Source of the DNA: Halopseudomonas pachastrellae
Lineage (GTDB): Bacteria; Pseudomonadota; Gammaproteobacteria; Pseudomonadales; Pseudomonadaceae
Reading direction: 5' to 3'
Assembly: GCF_900114765.1 (NCBI RefSeq)
Contig: NZ_FOUD01000007.1
Coordinates: 62,001-126,000 of the forward strand
Length of the DNA: 64,000 nucleotides
The notes below the pieces were generated by a model. That model did not search any database, was not told the origin of the DNA, and saw nothing but the letters and a program-made list of their open reading frames with translations. Shown here piece after piece: positions 188-14,178 of this stretch. Positions within the stretch are counted from its first letter, which is position 1, and every line of letters begins with the position of its first letter. The position numbers were made by a program, and so were the translations under genes.

Positions 188-1234
188 TTACGGCTTGTCG
201 ACAAACCACAGCTCGATGGCGTCACTGGTCAACTGATCACGGTTTTGCGGGGTGGGCGTCCAACTGCGCCAGCAACGCGTGGCGTGGGTGAGGAACTCGA
301 ACAGCGGCAGGTGCTGACGCAACACCCGGCGCTTGCGATGGCTGATGACCGGGTTGAAGTAGCCGAAATAATCGAGCATCTGCCGCGGGTTCTTGCGTAC
401 CCACAGCCACGACCCCATCTCCAGCGTGAACGGCAGGAACAGGTTATCGGGCTTATGTTCCTGGCTGTGGTCGTAGAGGTAGTCCCAGAGGTCGCCGTGG
501 GTGGTGTAGTTGATCGACTGCGGCTCGATGATATAGGGGTGATGGTGCGGGTAGGTCTGCTCGAACAGCTGCTTCAGCCGCAGCACCTCGGCGATATGGG
601 CGATGGGTTTGTGGCTGCGGGCATAGCTGCACCAGAGCCGGTCGCGGCGCCCAAAACCGCTGTGGCAATCCACACTCATGGCAAAGGGCGCAGACTGCAT
701 GCGCTGCTGCACGGTGTTGACCACCGCCATGGCTTCGGGCTCCATGGGCGCGCCCATCTTGCCCCGGTACCAGGGCAGGCGGCGGCTGATACGGTGGCCG
801 CTGACCAGCCAGGGCACCGGCCCCATGGCATCGACCGGGGCGTTGCGCATCAGGTCTACGCCGTTGAGGTTGCTGCGCCGGTGATGCCAGATGCCGCCGG
901 GGTTGATCATCGGCATGAACAGCAGCCGGACCCGCTCCAGTTGCTCGCGCAACTGATCATCCCAGTCGAGCCGGTGTACCAGACTGTGCAGCCAGGAAAT
1001 CAGCACCTGGGTGCCAATCCGCTCAACGCCATGCACGCCACCAAAAAAGCCAATCACCGGCGCCTGCGGCGAGCGGCTACCCAGCTCGATCACCCGCACC
1101 GGAATGGACAACCCGTTGACCGGCACATGCAAAGGCGTACTAACCCGCAGATGCCGCGCCGCCTGATGCAACAGCTGTTCAAGCTGCGCGTGCTCGGGGA
1201 GGTGGCGATGGATCTGGTGTTGCGCGTCGCTCAT
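188..1234 (-). CDS. M14-like zinc carboxypeptidase family protein (DUF2817-like)
   Basis: The 348-residue protein carries the zinc-carboxypeptidase signature in order: HGVE at residues 68-71 (H68 and E71 as zinc ligands), INPGG near 110-114, NLNGVDLMRN at 122-131 (substrate carboxylate binding), H191 in DCHSGFG as third ligand, and E272 in LEMGSW as the likely catalytic glutamate. This is an intact M14-type active site. No signal peptide or membrane segment is seen, so it should be cytoplasmic. The substrate may be a peptide or an amidated small molecule. The start at 1234 has only a weak ribosome-binding site. The gene stands between a Tat lipoprotein gene downstream and a repeat element upstream, with no clear operon partner. 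Confidence 0.7.
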   Translation of the reverse strand: MSDAQHQIHRHLPEHAQLEQLLHQAARHLRVSTPLHVPVNGLSIPVRVIELGSRSPQAPVIGFFGGVHGVERIGTQVLISWLHSLVHRLDWDDQLREQLERVRLLFMPMINPGGIWHHRRSNLNGVDLMRNAPVDAMGPVPWLVSGHRISRRLPWYRGKMGAPMEPEAMAVVNTVQQRMQSAPFAMSVDCHSGFGRRDRLWCSYARSHKPIAHIAEVLRLKQLFEQTYPHHHPYIIEPQSINYTTHGDLWDYLYDHSQEHKPDNLFLPFTLEMGSWLWVRKNPRQMLDYFGYFNPVISHRKRRVLRQHLPLFEFLTHATRCWRSWTPTPQNRDQLTSDAIELWFVDKP

Positions 1235-1362
1235 GAGGCACTCGGGCGTGGGGAAGCCTGATCATGGCAGGGGTGTGTGACGATTGGGTTAATGTGCTCG
1301 AGCGGGAGCATCGTTTGCTCGTATTGGCATGGCTTTACGCTATCGCTCATGCGTACTCTGCT

Positions 1363-1507
1363 TTTCGCCTTCCTGGCGAGTCACTTTTCTTTGTGTGGCC
1401 AAAGAAAAGTAACCAAAAGAAAGGCACCCGGCCGCGCTGTCGGGGTGCTCTATGGGTTGTTAGGGGAAATGGGCAAGCATTTCCCCTGACTCGCCGTAAG
1501 GGCGAAA
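1363..1507. repeat. MITE-like element with terminal inverted repeats
   Basis: The gap between the M14-like gene and the esterase (1235-1610) holds a 145-base element bounded by inverted ends of the form TTTCGCC-N5-GGCGAGTCA (left 1363-1383, right 1487-1507; 17 of 21 positions match). Inside are two perfect palindromes. One is ACTTTTCTTT/AAAGAAAAGT with an 8-base loop (1383-1410). The other is GGGGAAATG/CATTTCCCC with a 6-base loop (1463-1486). Each end can also fold through TCGCC/GGCGA. The AAAGAAAAGTAACCAAAAGAAAGG core resembles a sequence I remember as dispersed between genes in Pseudomonas and related bacteria. No target-site duplication is obvious. Short open frames across it look like artefacts. 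Confidence 0.6.
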
Positions 1508-1610
1508 CCTGAATTGGATGTGGGCTTGGCAACCGGCCTTAACGACGAACTGCAACGGGTTGAGACTATCCAGCAGCGTCAGTGCCATACGACAAAGCAG
1601 CCTTCAAACC

Positions 1611-2828
1611 TCAATCCACCAACGCCCCATTCACAATCGCCCGCAACTCCTGCCGCACCGCATAACTCGACGACGGAATCAGCTGGGTCATAAAGACCAT
1701 CAGCAGGTCTTCCACCGGATCGATAAAGAAGTTGGTACTGGCCATGCCGCCCCAGCCGTATTCGCCCACCGAGCCGTTGGTTTGTGACTTGGCGACGTCG
1801 ATCTTGACCGAAAATCCAAGGCCAAAGCCGCTGCCGTCGTAGGGTGTTTCGCTGAAGGAGCCGACCGAAACGCCGGGCAAGTCCTGGTTGTTCGGCAGGT
1901 GGTTCATGCGCATGAACTCCAGCGTTTTACGGCCGATGATGCGAGCGCCGTCCAGCTCGCCGCCGTTGGCCAGCGCCTGGGCGAAGCGGTAGTAGTCGTC
2001 AATGGTGGAGACCAGCCCGCCGCCGCCCGACAGATAGCCGTGGGCCTTGCTGAAGTTGGAGTCTTGCGGGTCGTCCTGCAGGCTGAAGCTGCCGCCGGGC
2101 TGGAACTGGTAGCAGGCGGCAAAGCGCGGCAGTTTGTCGGCGGGTACGGTGAAAAAGGTATCCACCATGCCCAGCGGCGCAAAGATATGGCGCTGGAAGT
2201 ATTCATCCAGCGACAGCCCCGATAGTACCTGCACCAGGTAGCCGCATACGTCGGTTGCGACCGAGTAGTTCCAGGCGGTGCCGGGAGAAAACTCCAGTGG
2301 CAGACGGGCCAGGTCCTCGACCAGGCGGTCCAGTGTCAGACCCGGGCCGCCGTCGAGCTTGAGGCTGCGGTAGGCCGCATCGACGTTGGTGCGGTTCATG
2401 AAGCCGTAGGTCAGGCCCGACTGATGGGTGAGCAGATCGCGGATGGTCATCGGCCGCTCGCAGGCGGTGGTCAGCATCTGCGGGTAGACGCCGGTCTTGT
2501 AGACGCGCAGGTTGCTCCAGCTGGGAATGTACTTGTGGACCGGGTCATCAAGCAGAAAGCGGCCCTGCTCGTACAGCTGCATCAGGGCGATGGAGGTGAT
2601 CGGCTTGGTCATGGAATAAATGCGGAAGAGGGTGTCACGCTCCACCGGCAGGCCGCGCTCCACGTCCCGCAGGCCCTGCGCGTGACAATAGACCAGTTCA
2701 CCGCGCCGGGCGACCAGCGTCAGGGCGCCGGGCAGTTTGCCGGCGTCGATGTAGGCTGATTGTAGGTGGCTGCCAATGTGTGAAATCCGTTCCAGGTCGA
2801 CGCCGGCGATGCAGTTGCTGTGGGCCAT
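1611..2828 (-). CDS. Beta-lactamase-fold serine hydrolase / esterase
   Basis: The 405-residue protein belongs to the serine beta-lactamase-like family (class C, EstB and penicillin-binding protein fold). The nucleophile motif SMTK is at residues 72-75, inside the typical [12 protein letters not shown] context. The second catalytic motif is Y188-S189 in [15 protein letters not shown] segment near residue 366 replaces the KTG box of true beta-lactamases, as in family VIII esterases. No signal peptide is visible, which favours a cytoplasmic esterase or amidase over an antibiotic-resistance enzyme. The start at 2828 is the first methionine of a convincing N-terminus; a weak purine-rich site lies upstream. 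The gene is transcribed away from the YkgJ-like gene. Confidence 0.8.
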
Positions 2829-3037
2829 AGGTGGAGTATCCCTCGTGTGCGTGAACCCTCGATAGTAGCTTGCCGGGGCCGCTGACAGAAGGCTCCAGCG
2901 CCGGCAAATGCCGCGTCATGCGGAGGCGTGATGGCGGTTACAAAATAAAGTCGGTTTCGCCGGGCCAGACCTCTTGTGCGCCAACGCGGCGCGGAGTAAA
3001 AAAACGCTCACCGAAGCGGCCTGAGGATTGCGATGAA

Positions 3038-3415
3038 ATGAGCGACCATTCGCCCTGTCTGAACTGCGGTGCCTGTTGCGCCACATTCAGGGTGTCTTTT
3101 TACTGGGGAGAAACCGATAGTACCCCAGGGGGTGACGTACCCACCCACCTTACCGAACAGATAACGCCTTACCGTGCCTGCATGCAGGGCACCAATCAGC
3201 CCAAGCCGCGCTGCGTCGGTTTGCTGGGTACGGTTGGCGAGGGCGTGCGTTGCAGTTTGTACGAGCAGCGCCCCAGCCCGTGCCGTGAATTCCCTTATCA
3301 CGGTGAAAACGGCCAGGACAGTCCGGATTGTCAGCGCGCCAGAGCCGCCCACGGCTTGCCCCCGCTGCCATCCAATCCGACACGTCCGCGGCTGATTCCG
3401 ATCATCGCGGCTTGA
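3038..3415 (+). CDS. YkgJ-type cysteine cluster protein
   Basis: This 125-residue protein begins MSDHSPCLNCGACCATF. It has the CxxCxxCC cluster near the N-terminus (C7, C10, C13, C14) and further cysteines at RCVGL, RCSLYEQRPSPC and DCQRA. This is the pattern of the YkgJ/UPF0153 family, thought to bind zinc or an iron-sulfur cluster. The role is unknown. The open frame extends upstream to 2870, but the start at 3038 is preferred. It matches the family N-terminus and follows a GAGGA box, while the upstream segment is basic and unlike the family. The gene stands alone and converges on the metallopeptidase gene, with a hairpin between them. Confidence 0.8.
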   Translation: MSDHSPCLNCGACCATFRVSFYWGETDSTPGGDVPTHLTEQITPYRACMQGTNQPKPRCVGLLGTVGEGVRCSLYEQRPSPCREFPYHGENGQDSPDCQRARAAHGLPPLPSNPTRPRLIPIIAA

Positions 3416-3423
3416 TCTGAGTG

Positions 3424-3449
3424 CACGCACGCCATTACCGGCGTGCGTG
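3424..3449. terminator. Convergent hairpin between cysteine-cluster and peptidase genes
   Basis: A perfect 10-bp stem, CACGCACGCC with GGCGTGCGTG, and a 6-base loop lie in the 37-base gap between two convergent genes. There is no clear T-run, so this may be a weak or bidirectional terminator. Confidence 0.5.
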
Positions 3450-3452
3450 ATC

Positions 3453-4598
3453 TCATTCAGCGCTGCTGCGGGTGCTGCTATCGGCAATCAGCGCATGCAC
3501 CAGATAGAGCTTGCGCAGGCTGTCGACGTTGAGCACAAAGGGGTAGATATCGGTCTGCCCCATGCTGCGCGCCAGTACGTTCAGCACGCTGCTCAATTGC
3601 ACCCAGCGATTGCAGAAATCCAGAAAGGCCTCGCGTTCGTCCTGCCCCAGCGGCAGCGGCGGTAGCTGACTGCTGTCAAAGGGTTCAACGTGCATGGCCA
3701 GGCTCCCGGGCTGGATGCCAAAGTCCAGGGCGGCATTCAGGGTGTCGGTCATGTGCAGGTAATGCGCCCAGGTTTCGGCCCAGTCTTCCCAGGGGTGAGC
3801 GCTGGCGTACTGGCTGATGAAATGCTGCTGCCAGTCGCTCACGGGCTGTTCGTAATGCGTTTTGAGGGCGGCCTGATAGTCGGCGCGCTCATCGCCGAAC
3901 AGCTCGCGGTAGGGCGTTAGCCAGTCGGTGGTCTGTACCAGCCGGTCCCAGTAGTAATGCCCACTTTCATGGCGGAAGTGCCCGAGCAGGGTGCGGTAAG
4001 GTTCGTGCAGTTGCTGACGACGCTGCTCGCGGTTGGCCGGGTCCGCTTCGGCCAGATCCAGGGTGATTTCACCGGCCATGTGCCCGGTGGTGATCGGTGG
4101 CCCGCCCGGCAGCTGGCGCAACAGGTGAAAGCCCAGACCATGCTCCGGGTCCAGCCGGCGCGGCACTACCGGCAGCCCCAGGAGAACGAGCTGCGCCACC
4201 AGGCGGCGCTTGGCCTGCTCGACCTGCAGCCACAGGGCCTCGCTGTTCGCTTGGCTGAGATCGGGGATGGTCAGGTTGAGGTCGCATGACAGGCACAGGG
4301 CCGCGTCGCTGTCAGCGGGAATCAGCCAGTTGCACTGGGCCGCGCTGGCACGGTTGGTGCAGCAGCGCACACGGCGCGGCTCGGCAGCCTGGGTGCGGTA
4401 ATGCTCGGCGTCTGGTTTCAGGGCCAGCAGCTGGCCCTGTTCCGGCAGGTAGCCCAGCTCGGCGCCGCAGCGCACGCAATGGGTGTTGTCAAAGAAGATC
4501 GGCTGGCCGCAGCTACAGCGCTGCAGCAAGCCATTGGGATGGTAATCGAACAGCTGTTGTCCGCGACTGCGCTGCAGCAGTTGCTCGAAGTAGCTCAT
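3453..4598 (-). CDS. Putative zinc-binding metallopeptidase with N-terminal zinc ribbon
   Basis: The 381-residue protein starts with paired cysteines (C28/C30, C41/C44) forming a zinc ribbon. More cysteines follow at C79/C80, C89, C102 and C105. The peptidase core has HESGH at 210-214 (H210, E211, H214), the HExxH metal site. The DERADYQAALKTHYEQ and WEDWAETWAHYLHM stretches downstream fit a third metal ligand and a helical C-terminus. The family is known only as putative zinc-binding metallopeptidases, often encoded beside alpha-E and ATP-grasp genes, as here. It is the last gene of the leftward ATP-grasp/alpha-E/peptidase operon, 18 bases after the alpha-E gene. A job in cleaving or trimming the peptide product of the neighbouring ligases is inferred. 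No export signal is visible. Confidence 0.8.
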   Translation of the reverse strand: MSYFEQLLQRSRGQQLFDYHPNGLLQRCSCGQPIFFDNTHCVRCGAELGYLPEQGQLLALKPDAEHYRTQAAEPRRVRCCTNRASAAQCNWLIPADSDAALCLSCDLNLTIPDLSQANSEALWLQVEQAKRRLVAQLVLLGLPVVPRRLDPEHGLGFHLLRQLPGGPPITTGHMAGEITLDLAEADPANREQRRQQLHEPYRTLLGHFRHESGHYYWDRLVQTTDWLTPYRELFGDERADYQAALKTHYEQPVSDWQQHFISQYASAHPWEDWAETWAHYLHMTDTLNAALDFGIQPGSLAMHVEPFDSSQLPPLPLGQDEREAFLDFCNRWVQLSSVLNVLARSMGQTDIYPFVLNVDSLRKLYLVHALIADSSTRSSAE

Positions 4599-4616
4599 GG
4601 TGCCTCCTGTGCTCGC

Positions 4617-5573
4617 TCAACTGCTGCCTTGCAGTTGCTCCGGGCTGGCGAAGTAGGTTTGGCTGATGGCCGCGTGTAGTTCGTCAAAGTCGATCTGGAT
4701 CTCGTCGACAAAGGCGTGCAGCTCGTCGGGCTCGGCGGCCAGCAGGGCGACGTCCGGCTTGCTCAGATTCTGCCGACAGGTTTCCACCTCCTGCAGGGCC
4801 AACTCATGCCGCGGTAAGGTCTGCAGAGCGTTGGCCAGGCGTTCCATGCAGCAGGCCACGCTGCGCGGGAACAGCCGATCCTGCAGCAGGAAGCTAAGCA
4901 CATCCGGCCCGCGAATGCGCAGACGTACGTGCTGGCGATACATCTGGTAGCCGGTGAGGGATTTGAGCACGCTCATCCACTGCAGGGTTTCAAATGGCTT
5001 CAGGTCTTCGTCGCTGCGCGGCAGCAGGTTGGCCGAGCGCACGTCGATGATGCGGGTGGTCATGTCGGCGCGTTCCAGCTGGCGGCCCAGCATCAGGAAG
5101 GAGCGCACCTGGGTGTAGCTCAGGATGCCCTCAATCAGGCCGTTGACCGTCTGGCAGCTGCGAATCACGCGGCCCAGAAAGGCGTCGCGGCGGCGCGGTG
5201 TGATACCCGAGCCGACCTGCTCCTTGACGCTCAGATACAGCTGGTTGACCTCTTCCCAGATTTCGCGCGGAATCACGTCGCGGGTGGTACGCAGGTTCTC
5301 CCGAGCGGCGGCCAGCGAGCTGAGAATGGAGCCGGAATAGCGGCGGTCACCGCACATGAAGGTCAACACGCTGGCTTCATCGCGGGTGGGGTACAGCTCG
5401 TCGAACAGGGCGTCGTTGCCGGTAATGGCAATGATCTCGGCCCATCCCAGCTTGGTCGAGCGGGGCAGGTCGAGTAACAGGTGACTGGTGACGCTCAGCA
5501 GGCGGGCGGTATCTTCGGCGCGCTCAAGATAGCGGGCCATCCAATAAATATTTTCGGCTACACGTGAAAGCAT
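4617..5573 (-). CDS. Alpha-E domain protein
   Basis: The 318-residue, mainly helical protein starts MLSRVAENIYWMARYLERAED. This is the N-terminal signature of the alpha-E family (DUF403), with its conserved arginine and glutamate pattern. The whole length is one alpha-E domain, the usual family size. No enzyme activity is established. Comparative genomics links the family to circularly permuted ATP-grasp enzymes and transglutaminases in predicted peptide-synthesis systems. It follows the ATP-grasp gene by 3 bases and is almost certainly co-translated with it. A second copy of this domain is fused to an ATP-grasp enzyme in the rightward arm (10624-13209). It may be a scaffold or specificity partner of the ligase. 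Confidence 0.9.
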   Translation of the reverse strand: MLSRVAENIYWMARYLERAEDTARLLSVTSHLLLDLPRSTKLGWAEIIAITGNDALFDELYPTRDEASVLTFMCGDRRYSGSILSSLAAARENLRTTRDVIPREIWEEVNQLYLSVKEQVGSGITPRRRDAFLGRVIRSCQTVNGLIEGILSYTQVRSFLMLGRQLERADMTTRIIDVRSANLLPRSDEDLKPFETLQWMSVLKSLTGYQMYRQHVRLRIRGPDVLSFLLQDRLFPRSVACCMERLANALQTLPRHELALQEVETCRQNLSKPDVALLAAEPDELHAFVDEIQIDFDELHAAISQTYFASPEQLQGSS

Positions 5574-5576
5574 GAT

Positions 5577-7031
5577 TCAGTTCCCTGCCAGGTCAACGAT
5601 CCAGGTGTCTTTGCTGCCGCCGCCCTGCGAAGAGTTGACGACCAGCGAACCCTTGGTGAGCGCGACCCGGGTCAGGCCGCCGGTAGTAACCCAGGTGGAT
5701 TCTCCAGACAGGATGAAAGGTCGCAGGTCCACGTGGCGCGGCTCCATGCTGTTGCCGCACAGAGTTGGCGAGGTAGACAGGCTCAAGGTGGGCTGCGCCA
5801 TGTAGTTGCGCGGGTTGGATTTGATCAGCTCGGCAAAGGTGTCGCGTTCCTTTTTGGTCGCGTGCGGGCCGATCAGCATGCCGTAGCCGCCAGACTCGTT
5901 GGCGGGTTTGACCACCAGCTTGTCGAGGTTATCCAGCACGTACTTGCGGTCGTCTTCGAACATGCACAGGTAGCTGGGCACGTTGGGCAGCAGGGGCTCC
6001 TGGCCCAGATAGTATTCGATGATCTTGGGTACAAAGGCGTAGATCACCTTGTCGTCTGCCACACCGGCGCCCGGTGCGTTGGCCAGCGCGACGTTGCCCT
6101 TGCGCCAGGCGCGCATCAGGCCGTGGACGCCGAGCATGGAGTCCGGGTTGAATACCTCGGGGTCGATGAACATGTCATCGACGCGGCGGTAGATGACATC
6201 CACCCGCGCCAGCCCGTCGATCTTGCGCATGTAGACGCAGTCGTCGTCACCCACCACCAAGTCGGTGCCTTCGACCAACTGCACGCCCATCTGCTGAGCC
6301 AGGTAGGAGTGCTCGTAGTAGGCCGAGTTGTAGATGCCGGGGGTGAGGATGACGATACTCGGGTCATCGCCGGGGCGCGGCGACAGCGAGGCGAGCATGT
6401 CATACAGCTGTGCGGTGTAATCGTCGACCGGCTGGATCAGCCCGGTGGCGAACAGGTCGGGCATCACGCGCTTGGTGACGTTGCGATTCTCCAGCATGTA
6501 GGACACACCAGAGGGAACGCGCAGGTTGTCTTCGAGCACGTAGAGCGTGCCGTCATTGTCGCGCACCAGATCGGAGCCGCAGATGTGTGCCCAGACGTTG
6601 TGTGGGGTGGAGATGCCCACGCACTGCGGTCGGAAGTTGACCGACTGGGCCAGCACCTCCTTGGGTACTACGCCATCTTTGACGATCTTTTGGTCGTGGT
6701 ACAGGTCGTCGATAAACATATTCAGAGCCTGCACACGCTGCTTGAGCCCGGCGTCGGTCTTCTGCCACTCGGCCAGCGGAATGATGCGCGGCACAATGTC
6801 GAAGGGCCAGGCCCGGTCGATCATGTTGCCTTCGGTATAGACGGTAAAGGTGATGCCCATCAGCTGGATGGCCACCTCGGCTGCGGTCTTGTGTTCGGTC
6901 AGCTCGCGGGCGTCGAGATTGGCGAGATACTGGCACAACAGCTCGGCCTCCGGGCGCGGCTGTCCCGGTGCCTTGATGAGTTCGTCGTAAAAGCCCTTCG
7001 AAGTGTAATCGTCCCAGTTTACTTTACTCAT
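5577..7031 (-). CDS. Circularly permuted type 2 ATP-grasp protein
   Basis: The 484-residue protein matches the circularly permuted ATP-grasp type 2 family over its full length. Recognisable blocks are YDELIKAPGQPR near the N-terminus, DNLRVPSGVSYMLENR, TPGIYNSAYYEHSYLAQQMG, EGTDLVVGDDDCVYMR and, near the C-terminus, VVKPANESGGYGMLIG with TWVTTGGLTRVAL. The lysine and glycine-rich block is the probable nucleotide-binding loop. ATP-grasp enzymes form carboxyl-amine bonds through an acyl phosphate, so a peptide or amide ligase is expected; the substrate is unknown. It is the first gene of the leftward operon and faces the transglutaminase-amidoligase gene across 216 bases. The start at 7031 gives the typical family N-terminus. 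Confidence 0.9.
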   Translation of the reverse strand: MSKVNWDDYTSKGFYDELIKAPGQPRPEAELLCQYLANLDARELTEHKTAAEVAIQLMGITFTVYTEGNMIDRAWPFDIVPRIIPLAEWQKTDAGLKQRVQALNMFIDDLYHDQKIVKDGVVPKEVLAQSVNFRPQCVGISTPHNVWAHICGSDLVRDNDGTLYVLEDNLRVPSGVSYMLENRNVTKRVMPDLFATGLIQPVDDYTAQLYDMLASLSPRPGDDPSIVILTPGIYNSAYYEHSYLAQQMGVQLVEGTDLVVGDDDCVYMRKIDGLARVDVIYRRVDDMFIDPEVFNPDSMLGVHGLMRAWRKGNVALANAPGAGVADDKVIYAFVPKIIEYYLGQEPLLPNVPSYLCMFEDDRKYVLDNLDKLVVKPANESGGYGMLIGPHATKKERDTFAELIKSNPRNYMAQPTLSLSTSPTLCGNSMEPRHVDLRPFILSGESTWVTTGGLTRVALTKGSLVVNSSQGGGSKDTWIVDLAGN

Positions 7032-7177
7032 TCAGCTACTCTATTCGCCAGGGGAAGGTTGGTGTGCAACCTGCAATTGCCATACCAGATGCACTGGATC
7101 GGGGCACTGTCCTGATGCGTGCGTTGTTACGGACGGCAGCGAAGATTGTCACCCACCTGTGTTAAGGGTTGAGTATC

Positions 7178-7194
7178 GCTGTGCTTGGCACAGC
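7178..7194. promoter_or_regulatory. Palindrome in the divergent promoter region
   Basis: The 216-base gap between the two divergent arms of the ligase/transglutaminase cluster contains GCTGTGC-TTG-GCACAGC, a perfect 7-bp inverted repeat with a 3-base spacer. It lies 54 bases before the rightward start. Its symmetry and position suit a repressor or activator site, but no family consensus was recognised. No convincing -35/-10 pair was identified for either arm. Confidence 0.35.
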
Positions 7195-7247
7195 CATTGC
7201 TTCTACTGTCGCGGGCACGGCCGCACACTTGATTGGGATCATCTGTC

Positions 7248-10200
7248 ATGACAATCCGCGTAGCACTAAGGCACCAGACCACCTACGATTTCGACAAGCC
7301 GGTTGCGCTGTCGCCACACCTGGTGCGTCTGCGCCCGGCGCCGCACTGCCGCACGCCGGTTGATGCCTATAGCCTCAAGATTAGCGGAGGTGAGTACTTC
7401 ATCAACTGGCAGCAGGACCCTTTTGGCAACCATGTGGCCCGTTTGGTGTTTCCGGAAAAGATGAGCCACCTGTCCATCGAGGTAGAGCTGGTTGCCCCGA
7501 TGACGGTCATCAACCCCTTTGATTTCTTTGTCGAGGAGTACGCCGAACAGTTCCCCTTCGACTATCAGGAAGGCTTGCGCAAGGAGCTGGCGCCCTACCT
7601 TGAATGCACCAAACCGGGGCCGCTGTTGAGCAAGTGGCTGACCTCTGTCAGCCGCGAGGAATGCTCCATTACCGATTTTCTGGTCACCCTGAATCAGCGG
7701 CTGGCCAACGACATTACCTACGGCATCCGTATGGAGCCTGGCGTTCAGACGCCAGAGCAGACGCTGGAGCTGGCCAGTGGGTCTTGCCGGGATTCAGCCT
7801 GGCTGCTGGTGCATATCTGCCGCCAGCTGGGCCTGGCAGCGCGCTTTGTCTCCGGTTATCTGGTGCAGCTGACCGCTGACGTCAAGGCGCTGGATGGCCC
7901 TTCGGGTACCGAAACCGATTTCACCGATCTGCATGCCTGGACCGAAGTCTTTGTGCCGGGCGCGGGTTGGATCGGGTTGGACCCGACTTCCGGGCTACTG
8001 GCAGGCGAGGGGCACCTGCCGTTGGCCGCTACAGCCGAGCCGGCCAGCGCCGCGCCCATTACCGGCGCAAGCGACCCCTGCGAAGTCGAGTTTGGCTTTG
8101 ACATGAGCGTCACCCGGGTGCACGAAGACCCGCGGGTAACCAAGCCTTACAGCGACAGCCAGTGGGAGGATATTCTGGCGCTGGGGCAGCAAGTTGATGC
8201 GCGTCTGGATGAGCTGGACGTGCGTTTGACCATGGGCGGCGAGCCGACCTTTGTCTCCATTGACGATATGGATGCACCAGAATGGACCATCGCAGCGCAG
8301 GGGCCGACCAAAAGAGGGCTTTCCGAGCGTCTGTTACGCCGGCTGCGGCCGCATTTTGCGCCCCATTCGCTGATCCATTATCAGCAGGGTAAATGGTACC
8401 CGGGCGAGCCACTGCCGCGCTGGGCGCTGGCCTGTTACTGGCGCCGAGATGGCAAGCCGATGTGGCAGGATGATCGCTGGCTGGCTGATGTAGACCGCGA
8501 CTACGGCGCGGACGAGCACAGCGCCAAACGCTTTGCCGAGGCGCTGATGCGCCGTCTGGGCGTGTCGGGTAAGCATTTGCTGCCTTGCTTTGAAGACGCC
8601 TACTACTACCTCTGGCTGGAACGTACTCAGCCCATCGACGTTGACCTGCGCGGTGAAGACCTCAAAGATGATGAAAATCGCCTGCGCCTGGCGCGTCTGC
8701 TGGAGCGTGGTCTAGATCGTACCGTGGGCTACACCTTGCCGCTGACACGGGCAGAGCGGGGCGGCTGGCTCAGTGGCGACTGGCCCCTGCGGCGTGAGCA
8801 ACTGTATCTGGTGCCGGGTGACTCGCCCATGGGCCTGCGCCTGCCGCTGTCGTCGTTGCCCATTGCCCGGCGTGAAGAAGCGCAGCCGTTGTCGCTGTTT
8901 GACGAACCCGCGCCGCTGCCTGACCTGCACGGTGAGGTGGCGAGTCGCTACAGCGCTGTGCACAGCATCCGCCATGACGGCATGCATCACATGGCCGCGG
9001 GGCAGGACTGGCAGGAACAACTGCCCGAGTTGAGCGACGGAGGTGTCATCGGCACTGCGCTGTGCATCGAGCCGCGTGACGGCAAGTTGTTTATCTTCAT
9101 GCCGCCGCTCGCTGAACTTGAGTCCTATCTGGAGTTGCTGGCCTGCATTGAGCACTCGGCTGCCGAGCTGGACATGCCGGTCTGCATCGAGGGCTATGCG
9201 CCGCCGTCTGACAACCGCATCGAAAAATTCATGATCACGCCGGACCCGGGGGTGATTGAGGTGAACATCATGCCGGCGGCCAGTTGGCCGGAGCTGGTAC
9301 GCAATACGGAAATCCTCTATGAGGAAGCGCGTCAGACGCGTCTGGGCACCGAGAAGTTCATGCTCGACGGGCGTCATACCGGCACCGGCGGCGGTAACCA
9401 CGTTACCCTGGGCGGCCGCACGCCAGCCCAGTCGCCGTTCTTGCGCCGGCCCGATCTGCTGGCCAGCATGCTGACCTACTGGCAGCACCATCCGAGTCTC
9501 TCGTATCTGTTCTCCGGCATGTTTATCGGCCCGACCAGCCAAGCGCCGCGGGTGGATGAAGCGCGTTACGAAGCGCTATACGAGCTGGAAATCGCACTGT
9601 CGCAGATGCCGGAAGGTGAGGTGCCGCAGCCCTGGCTGGTTGACCGCCTGGTGCGCAACCTGCTGACGGATATCACCGGCAATACCCACCGCGCCGAGTT
9701 TTGTGTCGACAAGATGTATTCGCCCGACAGCGCCACCGGGCGCCTTGGGCTGTTGGAGCTGCGCGGTTTTGAAATGCCGCCGCATGCGCGCATGAGTCTG
9801 ATGCAACAACTGCTGATTCGCGCGCTGGTAGCGCGCTTCTTTGCCGACCCGTATCGCCAGCCACTGGCGCGCTGGGGCACCGCCCTGCATGACAAGTGGA
9901 TGATGCCGCATTACCTCTGGCGCGATCTGTGCGAGGTGCTGGCGGATCTGCGCGATCACGGCTTTGACTTTGCAGAAGACTGGTTTGCGCCTTTTCTGGA
10001 GTTTCGCTTTCCGCACGCCGGCGAGGTGCAGTACGGCGATACCCGTATCACCCTGCGCCAGGCTATCGAGCCCTGGCACGTGCTGGGCGAGGAGGTCAGT
10101 GGCGGCGGTACGGCGCGCTATGTGGACTCCTCCGTCGAGCGGCTGGAGGTCAAGCTGCAGGACTATAACCCGGCGCGTCACGTGCTGACCTGCAATGGCT

Positions 10201-10568
10201 TTCGGGTACCGCTGCAGTCAACCGGTGTGGCGGGCGAGGCGGTAGCCGCGGTGCGCTATCGCGCCTGGCAGCCACCGTCGGCGCTGCATCCGACCATCGC
10301 CGTGCAGGCGCCGCTGGTGTTCGATCTGGTCGATACCTGGAACGCCCGCTCGCTGGGTGGCTGCACCTATCACGTGGTGCACCCGGCCGGACGCAACTTC
10401 GAGCGCTTCCCGATCAATGCCAATGAAGCAGAGGCGCGGCGCATGGCGCGATTCTGGGAGTATGGGCATACCCAGGGTGCGATGGCAGAGATCCAGCAGG
10501 CGCCCGGACAGGAGTATCCACATACGCTCGATCTACGACGCGCCGGGGTGCGCAGTCCTGGTTTATAA
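7248..10568 (+). CDS. Transglutaminase-like / DUF2126 putative amidoligase fusion
   Basis: The 1106-residue protein has three parts. An N-terminal beta region (about 1-85) precedes a transglutaminase core with Cys180 (GSCRDSAW), His229 (LHAWTEVF) and Asp245 (LDPTSG), a complete catalytic triad. From about residue 290 to the end is the DUF2126 region, starting RLTMGGEPTFVS. This region is classed as a putative amidoligase of the glutamine-synthetase/GCS fold. Later blocks include DAYYYLWLER, PGVIEVNIMP and GGGNHVTLGG, the last being a likely ATP or metal-binding element. One chain could thus both form and cleave or exchange amide bonds. ATG 7248 is preferred over TTG 7233 because MTIRVALRHQTTY is the usual N-terminus and GGGAT lies upstream. 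It is the first gene of the rightward arm. Confidence 0.9.
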   Translation: MTIRVALRHQTTYDFDKPVALSPHLVRLRPAPHCRTPVDAYSLKISGGEYFINWQQDPFGNHVARLVFPEKMSHLSIEVELVAPMTVINPFDFFVEEYAEQFPFDYQEGLRKELAPYLECTKPGPLLSKWLTSVSREECSITDFLVTLNQRLANDITYGIRMEPGVQTPEQTLELASGSCRDSAWLLVHICRQLGLAARFVSGYLVQLTADVKALDGPSGTETDFTDLHAWTEVFVPGAGWIGLDPTSGLLAGEGHLPLAATAEPASAAPITGASDPCEVEFGFDMSVTRVHEDPRVTKPYSDSQWEDILALGQQVDARLDELDVRLTMGGEPTFVSIDDMDAPEWTIAAQGPTKRGLSERLLRRLRPHFAPHSLIHYQQGKWYPGEPLPRWALACYWRRDGKPMWQDDRWLADVDRDYGADEHSAKRFAEALMRRLGVSGKHLLPCFEDAYYYLWLERTQPIDVDLRGEDLKDDENRLRLARLLERGLDRTVGYTLPLTRAERGGWLSGDWPLRREQLYLVPGDSPMGLRLPLSSLPIARREEAQPLSLFDEPAPLPDLHGEVASRYSAVHSIRHDGMHHMAAGQDWQEQLPELSDGGVIGTALCIEPRDGKLFIFMPPLAELESYLELLACIEHSAAELDMPVCIEGYAPPSDNRIEKFMITPDPGVIEVNIMPAASWPELVRNTEILYEEARQTRLGTEKFMLDGRHTGTGGGNHVTLGGRTPAQSPFLRRPDLLASMLTYWQHHPSLSYLFSGMFIGPTSQAPRVDEARYEALYELEIALSQMPEGEVPQPWLVDRLVRNLLTDITGNTHRAEFCVDKMYSPDSATGRLGLLELRGFEMPPHARMSLMQQLLIRALVARFFADPYRQPLARWGTALHDKWMMPHYLWRDLCEVLADLRDHGFDFAEDWFAPFLEFRFPHAGEVQYGDTRITLRQAIEPWHVLGEEVSGGGTARYVDSSVERLEVKLQDYNPARHVLTCNGFRVPLQSTGVAGEAVAAVRYRAWQPPSALHPTIAVQAPLVFDLVDTWNARSLGGCTYHVVHPAGRNFERFPINANEAEARRMARFWEYGHTQGAMAEIQQAPGQEYPHTLDLRRAGVRSPGL

Positions 10569-10623
10569 TCGACGGTTACACATTTAAGGCTGCTGATGTT
10601 CAGCCGTCACCGGGAACTGCTGC

Positions 10624-13209
10624 ATGCAACAAGCTGTGAATCTGGGATCTGCCGTCAAGGCCATCCTTGGGGAGTATCCGGGATGCGCCGGGCACGACGA
10701 GCTGCTGGGCGAGGATCAGCAGCCGCGTGTCCCCTGGCAGGCACTGCTGGAGGACGTCGCGCGTCTCGGTCCTGACGTGCTCGTTGGACGTTGGGAAGAA
10801 ACCCAGAATCTGCTGCATGAGAATGGCGTTACCTTCAACCCTTACGAAGATGACCCGGGCCAGCTCCGTTCCTGGCAGCTGGACTGTCTGCCTTGGGTGG
10901 TTGGTACCCAGGAGTGGGATGAGCTGGAAGCTGGCCTGCGTCAGCGCAGCCGCCTGCTTGAGCACATTCTGGATGACCTCTACGGTGCGCGGCGCATCAT
11001 CAGTGAGGGCCTGTTGCCGCCGGAGCTGATTTTTACCCATCCGGGCTTTCTGTTTTCGGCCGCAGACAGTCCGCCGCAGGTAGAGCGACCGCTGCTGATT
11101 TTTCATGGTACGGATCTGGTGCGCGACAGCCAGGGCGGCTGGCAGGTGCTGGCCGACTGGACCCAGTCGCCGGCCGGCGCAGGCTACGCGCTGGAAAACC
11201 GCATTACCCTGGCGCGGGCCTTGCCGAGTATCTACCGTGAAGCGCCGATCAAACGGCTGGCGGGCTTTCTGCAGGCGCAGCACCGCTGTTTGGCCAGTCT
11301 GGCCAACGGGCAGCGCGAGCAGCCGAATATCGTCCTGTTGTCGCCGGGCCCGGGCAGCCCCGGTTACTTTGAACACGCCTGGCTGGCCAACTACATGAAT
11401 TTCTCGCTGGTCGAGGGCGATGACCTGGTGGTGCGCGACGGGCAGGTTGCCATGCGTACTCTGGGCGGCCTCAAGCAGGTGGATGTGATTCTGCGGCAGA
11501 TTAACGACCCCTGGTGCGACCCGCTGGAACTGCGCCCGGACTCGCTGCTCGGGGTGCCTGGGCTGCTACAGGCCGCGCGTTGCGGCAATGTGCATATCGC
11601 CAATGCGCTGGGCGCCGGTATTTTGGAGCACCCGGGGCTCTCGGCCTTTTTGCCGACGCTGTGTCAGGCGCTGCTGGGCGAAGAGCTGCTGCTGCCGTGC
11701 CGAGAAACCCTCTGGTGCGGCGATGCCCGCTCGCTGGAACAGGTCAAGTCCGAGATCGACGGCTGGATACTGCGCGATATCAGCAAGCCCGGACGCCTCT
11801 ACCATGCCGATCAAATGGGTCTCGAAGCGCTGCGCGACCTGCGCATCAGCATGGAACGCCACCCTTATCTGTTTACCGCTCAAAGGCCGATCGAAGCCGC
11901 GGTGACCCCTGGTTTCAACCCGCAGACCGGCACTCTGGAGCGGCAAAGTGCGACCCTGCGCTTTTTCAGTCTGGTCGAGCCCGATGATCTGACCAAGCCG
12001 GTCAACGAGCGTAACTACCGCGTCATGCCGGGCGGCCTGGCTTGGGTTGGTGAGCCGGGTGCACCGCTGATGAAGAGTCGGCTGGTCAAGGATATCTGGG
12101 TCATGGCGCCGGTGCCGCAGCCGCACATCAGTTTGCTGCGTCAGGCACTGGGGCCGATTGTCGTGACCCGCGACGGCAAGGATCTGCCATGCCGAGTAGC
12201 GGAAAGCCTGTTCTGGATGGGCCGTTACGGTGAGCGGCTGGACACCCGTGGCCGGCTGCTGCGCGAGGCGCTGGCCCGACTGCTGCAGGACGAGCGCCCG
12301 GAAACCGGCTCGCAGCTGATGCCGGACTTGTTGCGTGCGCTGGAAATTCCGCTGGACCCGGCCGATCTGGAAGGGGAGGCGCCAAGCAACAGCCGCTTCT
12401 CGCGCGAGTACATCGCCATTCGGGATCGCCTGCTGCAGATGTTTTCTGATGATCTGCCAGACGGCCTGCCGGTGCTGTTCGGGCACTTTGTACGCAACAG
12501 TCGGGCGGTGCGAGACCACCTTGGGGACGACACCTGGCGTGCTATCAACAGTTTGCGTCAGCACTTCAACAGCATGTCTCGGGCCCGGGGCGTGGTGGTC
12601 GGTCAGCGTCATCTGGAAGCCATGGTGCTGGATCTGGCGGCGTTCTTCGGTCTGTGCAACGAGACCATGCCGCACCATTATGGCTGGCGCTTCCTTGATA
12701 TTGGCCGTTTTCTGGAGCGTGCCATCGGCTCGCTGGAGTTGCTCAAGCTCGCGCTGCTGACCGCTGATGAGCCCGGTATTCCGCTATGGGAGGTGGTGCT
12801 CGCTACCACCGACAACCTGACTGTCTACCGTCGGCGCTATCGCTCACAGCTGCACCCGCTGGCGATTCTGGACCTGTTGTTGTTCGATGAGGCCAACCCG
12901 CGCTCCATTGGCTACATGCTCAAGCGGCTGGGTTCGCAGATTGCCAAGTTGCCGTCGCCGGGCAGCTCACCGTACCGTAATCAGGAACAGCGGCTGATTA
13001 TTCAGGCGACCAGTGCCCTGCATCTGGTCGACATCGAAACCCTGTCGGATCTGGAAGGCTCTGTTTCGGCGCGCAAGGCGTTGAGCGAGCTGCTGGATCA
13101 GTTGATTCAACCGATGGCTGAGCTGTCCAACGCCATCACCCACAGTCATTTCAGTCATGTTGAAGCGCCTCGTCAGTTGGTCAGCATGCACTTCAGCGGC
13201 CAGGCCTGA
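10624..13209 (+). CDS. Fused circularly permuted ATP-grasp and alpha-E protein
   Basis: The 861-residue protein is a fusion. Residues 1 to about 495 repeat the ATP-grasp type 2 plan of the leftward gene: LSPGPGSPGYFEHAWLAN, VEGDDLVVRDGQVAMR, NPQTGTLERQSATLRFF and MPGGLAWVG. From about 522 (CRVAESLFWMGRYGERLDTRGR) to the end is an alpha-E domain. The fusion supports the idea that the separate alpha-E and ATP-grasp proteins of the leftward operon also work as one complex. The C-terminal part of the ATP-grasp region lacks the KPANESGGYG loop seen in the leftward paralogue. The two enzymes may therefore differ in nucleotide binding, or this one may be inactive. It lies 55 bases after the amidoligase gene and 10 before the next. 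Confidence 0.9.
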   Translation: MQQAVNLGSAVKAILGEYPGCAGHDELLGEDQQPRVPWQALLEDVARLGPDVLVGRWEETQNLLHENGVTFNPYEDDPGQLRSWQLDCLPWVVGTQEWDELEAGLRQRSRLLEHILDDLYGARRIISEGLLPPELIFTHPGFLFSAADSPPQVERPLLIFHGTDLVRDSQGGWQVLADWTQSPAGAGYALENRITLARALPSIYREAPIKRLAGFLQAQHRCLASLANGQREQPNIVLLSPGPGSPGYFEHAWLANYMNFSLVEGDDLVVRDGQVAMRTLGGLKQVDVILRQINDPWCDPLELRPDSLLGVPGLLQAARCGNVHIANALGAGILEHPGLSAFLPTLCQALLGEELLLPCRETLWCGDARSLEQVKSEIDGWILRDISKPGRLYHADQMGLEALRDLRISMERHPYLFTAQRPIEAAVTPGFNPQTGTLERQSATLRFFSLVEPDDLTKPVNERNYRVMPGGLAWVGEPGAPLMKSRLVKDIWVMAPVPQPHISLLRQALGPIVVTRDGKDLPCRVAESLFWMGRYGERLDTRGRLLREALARLLQDERPETGSQLMPDLLRALEIPLDPADLEGEAPSNSRFSREYIAIRDRLLQMFSDDLPDGLPVLFGHFVRNSRAVRDHLGDDTWRAINSLRQHFNSMSRARGVVVGQRHLEAMVLDLAAFFGLCNETMPHHYGWRFLDIGRFLERAIGSLELLKLALLTADEPGIPLWEVVLATTDNLTVYRRRYRSQLHPLAILDLLLFDEANPRSIGYMLKRLGSQIAKLPSPGSSPYRNQEQRLIIQATSALHLVDIETLSDLEGSVSARKALSELLDQLIQPMAELSNAITHSHFSHVEAPRQLVSMHFSGQA

Positions 13210-13219
13210 GAGGTTTTTG

Positions 13220-14104
13220 GTGAAATATCTTTTGCGCCACAGCACCCGTTATCAGTACAGCGGCCCGGCCAGCCTGAGTCAGAACGAGGCGCGCATTTTG
13301 CCCCGTGTACTGCCCTGGCAGGAGTGCAATAACAGCCAACTGGAGATCAGCCCGCGTCCTGATCGCATGCGTGAGCGCACTGACTTTTTTGGCAATCGGG
13401 TGGTGTACTTCTCCATCGAGTCCTTGCATGACAGCCTGGACGTTAGCGTCAGCAGTGAAATCATCACCCATCCAAGACCCTTGGCTGACATCTTCTCGGG
13501 CATCGCCTGGGAGCAAGCGGTGCTGGAACTGCGTCAGGACCCGCGCCAGACCAACCGCGATTGTCTGGATGCGCGGCTCTATGTGCTCAGCTCGCCCTTT
13601 GTGTATCAAAGTGCCGAGCTGGCCGAGTTTGCCCGCAGCAGTTTCACGCCCGCGCGCAACCTGATTGATGCGGTGCTGGAGCTGAACACCCGTATCTTCA
13701 CCGAGTTCACCTACGACCCTGAATTCACCACGGTCGCAACGCCCCTGCAGGACGTGCTGGCCAGCAAACGGGGCGTCTGTCAGGACTTTGCCCACCTGGC
13801 CATCGGCTGCCTGCGCTCGCTGGGCCTGGCGGCCCGTTATGTCAGCGGCTACATGGAAACGCTGCCGCCGCCCGGTCAGGAAAAACTCCTCGGCGCAGAC
13901 GCCACCCACGCATGGCTGGCGGTCTACGTGCCCGGTTGGGGCTGGCTGGAGATCGACCCCACCAACGGCTGTGTGCCCGATGAGCGCTACATCGTACTCG
14001 GCTGGGGACGCGACTTCGCCGACGTCACGCCGCTCAAGGGCGTGATGACGGGCGGTGGGGAGCATGTGCTCAGTGTGGCGGTGGATGTGTTGCCGCAGGC
14101 CTAG
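13220..14104 (+). CDS. Transglutaminase-like cysteine peptidase family protein
   Basis: The 294-residue protein has a beta-rich N-terminal domain typical of bacterial transglutaminase-like proteins and a core with Cys187 (GVCQDFAH), His230 (THAWLAVY) and Asp246 (IDPTNG). The spacing nearly equals that of the large fusion protein upstream. It ends soon after the core, the usual length for a stand-alone member. Such proteins mostly act as peptidases or amide-exchange enzymes. GTG 13220 is chosen because GAGAGG precedes it and MKYLLRHSTRYQYSG matches the family start. An in-frame ATG at 13157 would overlap the previous gene by 53 bases. It is the last gene of the rightward arm and is followed by a terminator. 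Confidence 0.9.
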   Translation: MKYLLRHSTRYQYSGPASLSQNEARILPRVLPWQECNNSQLEISPRPDRMRERTDFFGNRVVYFSIESLHDSLDVSVSSEIITHPRPLADIFSGIAWEQAVLELRQDPRQTNRDCLDARLYVLSSPFVYQSAELAEFARSSFTPARNLIDAVLELNTRIFTEFTYDPEFTTVATPLQDVLASKRGVCQDFAHLAIGCLRSLGLAARYVSGYMETLPPPGQEKLLGADATHAWLAVYVPGWGWLEIDPTNGCVPDERYIVLGWGRDFADVTPLKGVMTGGGEHVLSVAVDVLPQA

Positions 14105-14142
14105 ATCAAGCTGCAAGCCACAAGCTTCAAGCTGCAAGAAAG

Positions 14143-14178
14143 AACCCGCGCGGTTGCGAATCGCGCGGGTTTTCTTTT
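14143..14178 (+). terminator. Rho-independent terminator of the transglutaminase operon
   Basis: A 10-bp stem, AACCCGCGCG with CGCGCGGGTT, and a 9-base loop are followed by TTCTTTT. It lies 38 bases past the last gene of the rightward arm. The bases before it (14107-14141) are AAGCT-based short repeats like those near the ETF and lpxH genes. Confidence 0.85.

Follow-up and report, generated by a model that had tools for sequence, protein, structure and literature searches.

A degenerate ATP-grasp kept beside an intact one, and sigma-54-type promoters facing both arms, in a widespread, probable amide-ligase and transglutaminase cluster of Halopseudomonas pachastrellae

Gene clusters that bring together an ATP-grasp ligase, an alpha-E protein and a transglutaminase, often along with the proteasome relative Anbu, were predicted by Iyer et al. 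(2009) to synthesize peptides or to tag with them, as reported in the available text of three citing papers (PMC6376114, PMC5666114, PMC3597751). Here we analyze such a cluster in 64,000 nucleotides of Halopseudomonas pachastrellae (contig NZ_FOUD01000007.1, positions 62,001 to 126,000; hereafter the window), where six intact genes, all with very strong family scores, form two divergent arms between positions 3453 and 14104. The abstract of Iyer et al. reportedly adds a glutamine-synthetase-like ligase, circularly permuted, and a peptidase of the Ntn-hydrolase type. As far as the system can be compared through the citing papers, the window shares with it a PF14403-type ATP-grasp, alpha-E (two copies), transglutaminase and, by family score, the DUF2126 ligase family. 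The differences are that the window's genome has no match to the orphan proteasome relative Anbu and that a zinc metallopeptidase follows alpha-E; one divergent promoter region is common to both arms. The preliminary description of this stretch had put the cluster forward as an undescribed system, which it is not: among 249 genomes sampled from the phylum, 132 carry the alpha-E module and 71 the DUF2126 module, and such a transglutaminase/carboxylate-amine-ligase fusion had been noted by 2008 (PMC2588565, available part). The cluster thus belongs to a widespread, previously predicted system, and what this analysis adds is the degenerate fused ATP-grasp, the internal duplication of alpha-E, a promoter footprint facing both arms and the constant presence of alpha-E in the sampled DUF2126 genomes.

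Three further systems bear comparison, each through the accessible portions of the papers cited. The Anbu operons of Yersinia bercovieri and Pseudomonas putida (PP_2685-2688) share ATP-grasp and alpha-E with the window, PP_2687 being taken as alpha-E from its position, and the P. putida operon is induced by nitrogen limitation; in contrast, the transglutaminase and Anbu of these operons are absent from arm A of the window, which adds arm B. Phosphate release from ATP has been reported for the Yersinia ATP-grasp (PMC6376114). In Burkholderia cenocepacia H111, I35_5080-5083 are under NtrC and sigma-54 control and, compared by names, comprise DUF404/407 (ATP-grasp), DUF403 (alpha-E), a transglutaminase-like protein and a large transglutaminase-like protein (PMC5491218). 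In the mycobacterial Rv2566 type, a papain-like domain at the N terminus is joined in one protein to a carboxylate-amine ligase domain, and it is claimed that this fusion and PafA of the pupylation system (PafA/Pup) have a ligase domain of one superfamily (PMC2588565). Pupylation differs in that no Pup-sized gene fits in the arms of the window and no proteasome operon lies in the cluster. A RimK/Rlo pair (retropepsin-like protease with RimK-type ATP-grasp) was not found among the nine proteins scanned, all from positions 188-14104.

Arm A, on the minus strand, runs from ATP-grasp through alpha-E to the zinc metallopeptidase; arm B, on the plus strand, runs from transglutaminase-DUF2126 through an ATP-grasp-alpha-E fusion to a second transglutaminase (Table 1). 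The family scores bear out the six genes, the domains and the two arms that the preliminary description had listed, and its domain list is correct. The intra-arm gaps are 3 and 18 nucleotides in arm A and 55 nucleotides in arm B, where the gap before the last gene hinges on the start of that gene; with gaps this short, each arm looks like an operon. The comparison of gene content and fusions across genomes that the description had proposed was run on two sets of loci: 61 stretches that include the window, the other 60 chosen mostly by family and not at random, and 80 loci (L114-L193) that are the best 80 of 593 matching stretches. Gene lists were made with our own profiles and the longest open reading frames of at least 80 amino acids. 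The layout recurs, with identical order and orientation of all six genes in L114, L115 (Pseudohongiella) and L117 (a near-identical relative), and with the peptidase inverted in L057, L119 and L121. The best 80 loci are titled Gamma-, Beta- and Zetaproteobacteria, Desulfuromonas, Bacteroidota, Verrucomicrobia, Planctomycetes, Nitrospirota, Bryobacterales and others.

The fused ATP-grasp has lost its catalytic motifs and is no equivalent of the standalone copy. We aligned 90 standalone-type and 85 fused rows, each of at least 100 bits and at least 330 residues. In the standalone protein of the window, whose closest solved relative is 3n6x (E 2.8e-159), named a putative glutathionylspermidine synthase, residues E167, N169, K375, G381, G382 and G384 correspond to positions that hardly vary in the standalone family. 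From the ATP-grasp fold and glutathione synthetase, we take the E-x-N pair and the lysine/glycine loop to be metal and ATP ligands. Retention in standalone (of 90) versus fused (of 85) rows is 88 versus 2 for E167, 88 versus 0 for N169, 88 versus 4 for R171, 88 versus 0 for K328 and 87 versus 0 for D435; for the glycines it is 88 versus 7 (G381), 89 versus 15 (G382) and 88 versus 2 (G384). All six motif positions are present in 87/90 standalone rows, while 84/85 fusions have at most two and the remaining one has three. Of the three standalone rows below six, L070 and L136 break off at the end of a locus or contig and are likely to be fusions, and L181, with a score of 5, adjoins a second, overlapping ATP-grasp open reading frame. 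In the fused copies K375 is retained in 54/85, and D109, R183, E240, D257 and D290, which lie outside the motifs, are retained in 85/85. The fusions from eight genomes that have no DUF2126 match show the same loss of motifs in 8/8.

This difference is old. One branch, with a support of 100 in the Shimodaira-Hasegawa-like approximate likelihood-ratio test (SH-aLRT), separates the 85 fused from 88 standalone rows in a tree made by a quick search, with no bootstrap and with several long fused branches (L070 and L136 omitted here and in the following comparison). The mean identity between loci is 0.41 for the fused domain versus 0.61 for the standalone one (820 pairs, 41 loci). The distances of the fused domain track those of the standalone domain (Mantel r 0.48, with 0 of 2000 permutations as high), a correlation that shared host ancestry alone could explain. 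Judged by its residues, then, the fused ATP-grasp is an old pseudoenzyme that has lost its catalytic residues; a description of it was not found in the open-licence literature, and Iyer et al. 2009 may contain one. The balance of amide-bond makers between the arms, which the preliminary description had stated, fails for this copy. Loss of catalytic residues, which it had named as a possible refutation, is thus found in one of the two ATP-grasps, while DUF2126 keeps long invariant blocks.

In a profile comparison (hhalign) of the N- and C-terminal halves of 50 standalone alpha-E sequences, 137 columns aligned with a probability of 99.3 and an E value of 1.2e-20, while a reversed and eight column-shuffled controls gave at most 0.3; for the halves of the fused alpha-E the probability was 61.4. 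By this comparison alpha-E is an internal duplication, for which no description was found in the open-licence literature, although Iyer et al. 2009 may contain one. Among 85 fused alpha-E rows, each of at least 220 residues, the N-terminal ER motif and G163/E167 are retained, and R91, N93, R95, D170 and R174 are gone in most. A search for a solved relative of alpha-E gave best E values of 0.45 and 0.039 (cullin-4B), which we did not accept as kin.

To see how the modules depend on one another, we counted them in the 249 sampled genomes, some of which are incomplete: alpha-E is present in 132, DUF2126 in 71, the metallopeptidase in 34 and Anbu in 84. Alpha-E accompanies the others almost without exception, in 71/71 DUF2126 genomes, 33/34 peptidase genomes and 83/84 Anbu genomes, and it occurs without DUF2126 in 61 of its 132 genomes. 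Of the 66 other DUF2126-positive Pseudomonadaceae genomes, 38 were searched, and each of the 38 gave two alpha-E matches, the first scoring 280-321 bits (the standalone range) and the second 205-242 bits (the fused range); the pattern holds where the arms are far apart, as in G042 (3.2 and 4.6 Mb; L054, L106). Of 47 fusion genomes searched, 46 also have a full standalone-type alpha-E, and G290, which is 74% complete, has a partial second match. DUF2126 occurs with a single, standalone-type alpha-E and no fusion in G182 and G207 (99% complete) and in G352 (86%). We had considered the fusion as a dedicated partner of DUF2126, an idea weakened by these three genomes and by the eight that have a fusion and no DUF2126. 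The dependence is therefore ordered: alpha-E occurs without DUF2126, the fusion occurs nearly always with a standalone copy, and DUF2126 and the fusion are separable.

Anbu has no match in 30/71 DUF2126 genomes. In the window's genome none was found by Anbu protein search, which we used because PF00227 alone is a poor test (an Anbu protein scores 23.6 bits); the sole proteasome-family match there is HslV, beside HslU. That the metallopeptidase replaces Anbu as a rule was rejected: 25/34 peptidase genomes also have Anbu, and the two are adjacent in L060 and L066. In L074, L081 and L097 a single cluster holds both arms as well as Anbu, which speaks for a joint system. In five genomes whose arms are apart (G174, G238, G285, G292, G308), the metallopeptidase adjoins DUF2126, on the opposite strand, and not alpha-E.

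Outside the ATP-grasps, the catalytic sites look alive as far as their residues can tell. The Cys-His-Asp triad is present in 106/106 DUF2126-fused transglutaminases, window included, in 81/82 second transglutaminases of arm B (the exception is truncated), and in 29/30 arm A transglutaminases of other genomes, where L100 (10474-11331) has Ser for Cys; among transglutaminases unassigned to an arm it is present in 6/7, the remaining one being gapped at Asp. HExxH is present in all 11 metallopeptidase rows scored, that of the window included. DUF2126 shows its invariant blocks in a 24-row alignment; membership in the family is given by the PF09899 score of 1321 bits alone, and we regard the domain as a putative glutamine-synthetase-like amidoligase.

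A physiological lead, the best one here and one that the preliminary description had missed, comes from the promoter region between the arms, which points to nitrogen limitation. The sigma-54-type site facing arm B is the only match without mismatch in the 64 kb of the window. We aligned the inter-arm spacers of 15 sequences (the window, 11 genomes of the same genus, L114, L117 and L120) out of 17 given, L115 and L116 not being resolved. The arm B site has 0-1 mismatch in 15/15 of these spacers and a site toward the ATP-grasp gene of arm A has 1-2 mismatches in 15/15; by eye, the two promoter blocks are the best conserved blocks of the alignment. Across loci, counting upstream stretches of at least 200 nucleotides, a match with at most one mismatch precedes 23/89 ATP-grasp and 14/106 DUF2126 genes (37/195 usually-first genes), compared with 1/315 other core genes (Fisher p 9e-16) and 7/350 non-core genes that have an upstream gap of at least 120 nucleotides (p 8e-12); these p values are too small, because the relatives are not independent. 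The promoter claim leans on the perfect site and the footprint. Between the promoters, at 7148-7164, lies a partly conserved element resembling an inverted repeat (TGTCAC-N5-GTGTTA, by eye); in L201 and L202 it forms a perfect palindrome, and an activator or a repressor might bind there.

The window's genome encodes NtrC, and the accessible parts of published expression studies connect related operons to it. For an ntrC mutant of B. cenocepacia, I35_5080-5083 are listed with values of -6.0 to -9.4 (PMC5491218). In P. putida, PP_2685-2688 are placed under NtrB/NtrC, and nitrogen limitation raises PP_2686-2688 11- to 15-fold (PMC7801951); the PP_2688 promoter responds 3.7-fold (PMC8050072).

Together these observations lead us to a reading that we hold at about even odds: the cluster would encode a nitrogen-starvation-induced, cytosolic, ATP-dependent system of amide ligation and hydrolysis whose active ATP-grasp acts together with a dead twin. 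Arm A would supply the active ligase, its alpha-E partner and the zinc metallopeptidase, which in the window's genome would take the place where many genomes have a transglutaminase and Anbu. Arm B would supply the putative DUF2126 ligase fused to a papain-like transglutaminase, a further transglutaminase, and the ATP-grasp-alpha-E fusion with its predicted dead ATP-grasp. By analogy with other pairs of enzyme and pseudoenzyme, the retention of a dead copy next to a living one in several phyla suggests that it serves as a structural or regulatory subunit; the fusion may pair with the living ATP-grasp and alpha-E as a scaffold or regulator. Using ATP, the ligases would activate a carboxylate for coupling to an amine of a peptide or protein, the enzymes of the thiol and zinc types would remove, transfer or trim the joined group, and nitrogen would be stored, marked or recovered; nitrogen shortage would switch the system on. 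Behind this reading stand the gene content, the catalytic residues kept and lost, the single split between fused and standalone copies, the co-occurrence and the conserved sigma-54-type promoters found here, and, from papers, the nitrogen and NtrC control of related operons and the phosphate release by one such ATP-grasp. Complex formation, location, substrate, product and physiological role are what we infer from these. The make-and-trim amide-bond system of the preliminary description agrees with the published predictions in the available text of PMC6376114, PMC5666114 and PMC3597751; the product it envisaged, a peptide tag or small peptide, is conjectural.

Several observations weigh against this reading. 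On the promoter side, the arm A site of the window, 40 nucleotides before the ATP-grasp start codon, has two mismatches, the one-mismatch pattern is at chance across the window (4 found, 3.8 expected), 17/18 Pseudomonas-titled loci of the second set lack a site of at most one mismatch upstream of the DUF2126 gene, and no convincing NtrC-binding site was seen in the inter-arm spacer, by eye only. In the accessible text of PMC7801951, the induction of PP_2686 is 12.6-fold in the wild type and 14.2-fold in an rpoN mutant, which argues against sigma-54 dependence (urtA is likewise induced without rpoN in the same table), and the Anbu gene PP_2685 is not up in nitrogen limitation (1.12). The main text of a P. 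stutzeri A1501 NtrC paper, in the part available, has no transglutaminase, ATP-grasp, alpha-E or proteasome (PMC8443478). Yersinia pull-downs with Anbu as bait gave no specific partner, in experiments that, in the available portion of the paper, did not ask about ATP-grasp/alpha-E pairing (PMC6376114). No solved relative of the DUF2126 profile was found (best E 0.35), eight genomes have the fusion with no DUF2126 match, and no product or substrate of the system was found in the open-licence literature. The loci are also interrelated, and counts over them overstate independence.

Two alternatives, protein tagging and a small-molecule route, have similar odds, and we regard each as unlikely. In the first, the ligases attach a peptide or amino acids to proteins, and Anbu, the metallopeptidase or the transglutaminases detach the tag or degrade the target. 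The company that the proteasome-like Anbu keeps with alpha-E (83/84 Anbu genomes) fits such a scheme, as does the tagging idea of Iyer et al., relayed in the available text of PMC6376114 and PMC5666114, but the largest gap inside the arms, 55 nucleotides, has no space for a Pup-sized gene, no small protein of at least 80 amino acids recurs widely nearby once Anbu and core genes are set aside (shorter open reading frames were outside the search), the 2008 paper has no Pup-like gene near the fusion in the part available (PMC2588565), and the window's genome has the system without an Anbu match.

In the second, the enzymes make and break a nitrogen-rich amide, such as gamma-glutamyl or polyamine-peptide conjugates, for nitrogen storage or scavenging. 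In glutathionylspermidine synthetase, too, a papain-like amidase is combined with an ATP-grasp, and the name of 3n6x points the same way, but that name is an annotation and not a tested activity. Related operons are co-induced with urea and amino-acid uptake genes (PMC5491218, PMC7801951), and marine metagenomes tie these domains to urea metabolism (PMC3597751), both as given in the accessible text. In contrast, no transporter or amine-catabolic gene is among the 14 printed recurrent neighbour groups (within 2.5 kb), an ABC-transporter ATPase group found in 8 loci lies at a median distance of 4.3 kb, and four amide-cutting or -transferring domains seem excessive for one small molecule. Quite improbable, finally, is that the fused ATP-grasp is a divergent enzyme and not a dead one, acting on another nucleotide or in another reaction: K375 survives in those 54 fusions, fold residues in nearly all, and fusion-specific residues are conserved (R at 169 in 70/85, G at 177 in 85/85), but the E-x-N pair is complete in 0/85 fusions and 0/8 more, and the fused domain evolves faster.

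Table 1. Features of the cluster, with positions in the window
Feature	Position	Strand	Evidence
Zinc-ribbon and HExxH metallopeptidase, end of arm A	3453..4598	-	PF15887 (Peptidase_Mx) E 4.9e-97; PF10005 E 7.4e-27
Standalone alpha-E, apparently internally duplicated	4617..5573	-	PF04168 E 9.4e-86
Standalone circularly permuted ATP-grasp, start of arm A, motifs intact	5577..7031	-	PF14403 E 3.6e-166
Sigma-54-type -24/-12 promoter toward arm A, TGGTATGGCAATTGCA	7072..7087	-	2 mismatches to TGGCACN5TTGCW
Sigma-54-type -24/-12 promoter toward arm B, TGGCACAGCCATTGCT	7186..7201	+	perfect match
Transglutaminase-DUF2126, start of arm B	7248..10568	+	PF08379, PF01841, PF09899 (E 0, 1321 bits)
Degenerate ATP-grasp fused to second alpha-E	10624..13209	+	PF14403 E 3.4e-119; PF04168 E 7.4e-63
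Second transglutaminase-like protein	13157..14104	+	PF08379; PF01841 E 4.2e-20
Terminator-like hairpin with T-rich tail, 3' of arm B	14141..14173	+	15 pairs, 8 G-C

The DUF2126 gene most likely starts at ATG 7248 and not at TTG 7233, and the last gene of arm B may start at GTG 13220 instead of ATG 13157. For the hairpin as a terminator only its position and length argue; terminator-like sites are frequent in the region (14 found, 8.1 expected in shuffles). Upstream of the cluster, at 188-3412, lie a zinc carboxypeptidase (PF00246), a beta-lactamase-fold protein (PF00144) and a CxxCxxCC metal-binding protein (PF03692), none of which is in the printed recurrent groups except in the window's near relative. 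The widest of these groups is a 631-amino-acid sensor-like protein (7 genus labels), followed by a 417-amino-acid protein (5) and a 233-amino-acid response regulator (4). The 417-amino-acid protein (L123:6656-7909), which has no Pfam family above the cut-off, occurs near core genes in Methylomonas, Gallionella, a zetaproteobacterium and others.

The compact cluster may have arrived by horizontal transfer, judging from three comparisons. The DUF2126 protein of the window is 73-78% identical to those of Pseudohongiella, an uncultured gammaproteobacterium and Nitrincola and 57-60% identical to those of the other Pseudomonadaceae compared; the nearest rows of both its ATP-grasps are from the same three; and DUF2126 is patchy within the genus (12/19 sampled genomes). 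A few phage-filed records (MT835738.1, MT835541.1, CAKLQH020000004.1, CAKLQF020000002.1) encode this ATP-grasp, two of them also alpha-E, and may be misfiled host DNA. A phage origin was set aside: just 2 (alpha-E) and 4 (ATP-grasp) phage records match, at less than 60% identity.

The mark of the system, alpha-E, occurs in roughly half of the genomes sampled from the phylum, and in 83 of them it is accompanied by Anbu. Knowing which ligase is dead guides the choice of the protein to assay and the protein to treat as a partner, while the promoter footprint and the published expression data point to a condition in which to look; with both in hand, a long-standing question becomes open to direct test. 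More tentatively than the reading above, we propose an old, obligate pair of living and dead ATP-grasp/alpha-E proteins, spread over several phyla, that may attach a nitrogen-bearing group to peptides or proteins in starvation, with the twin controlling or positioning the ligase and DUF2126 optional. If this is true, such a living-plus-dead machine would be a new kind of starvation-controlled covalent modification.

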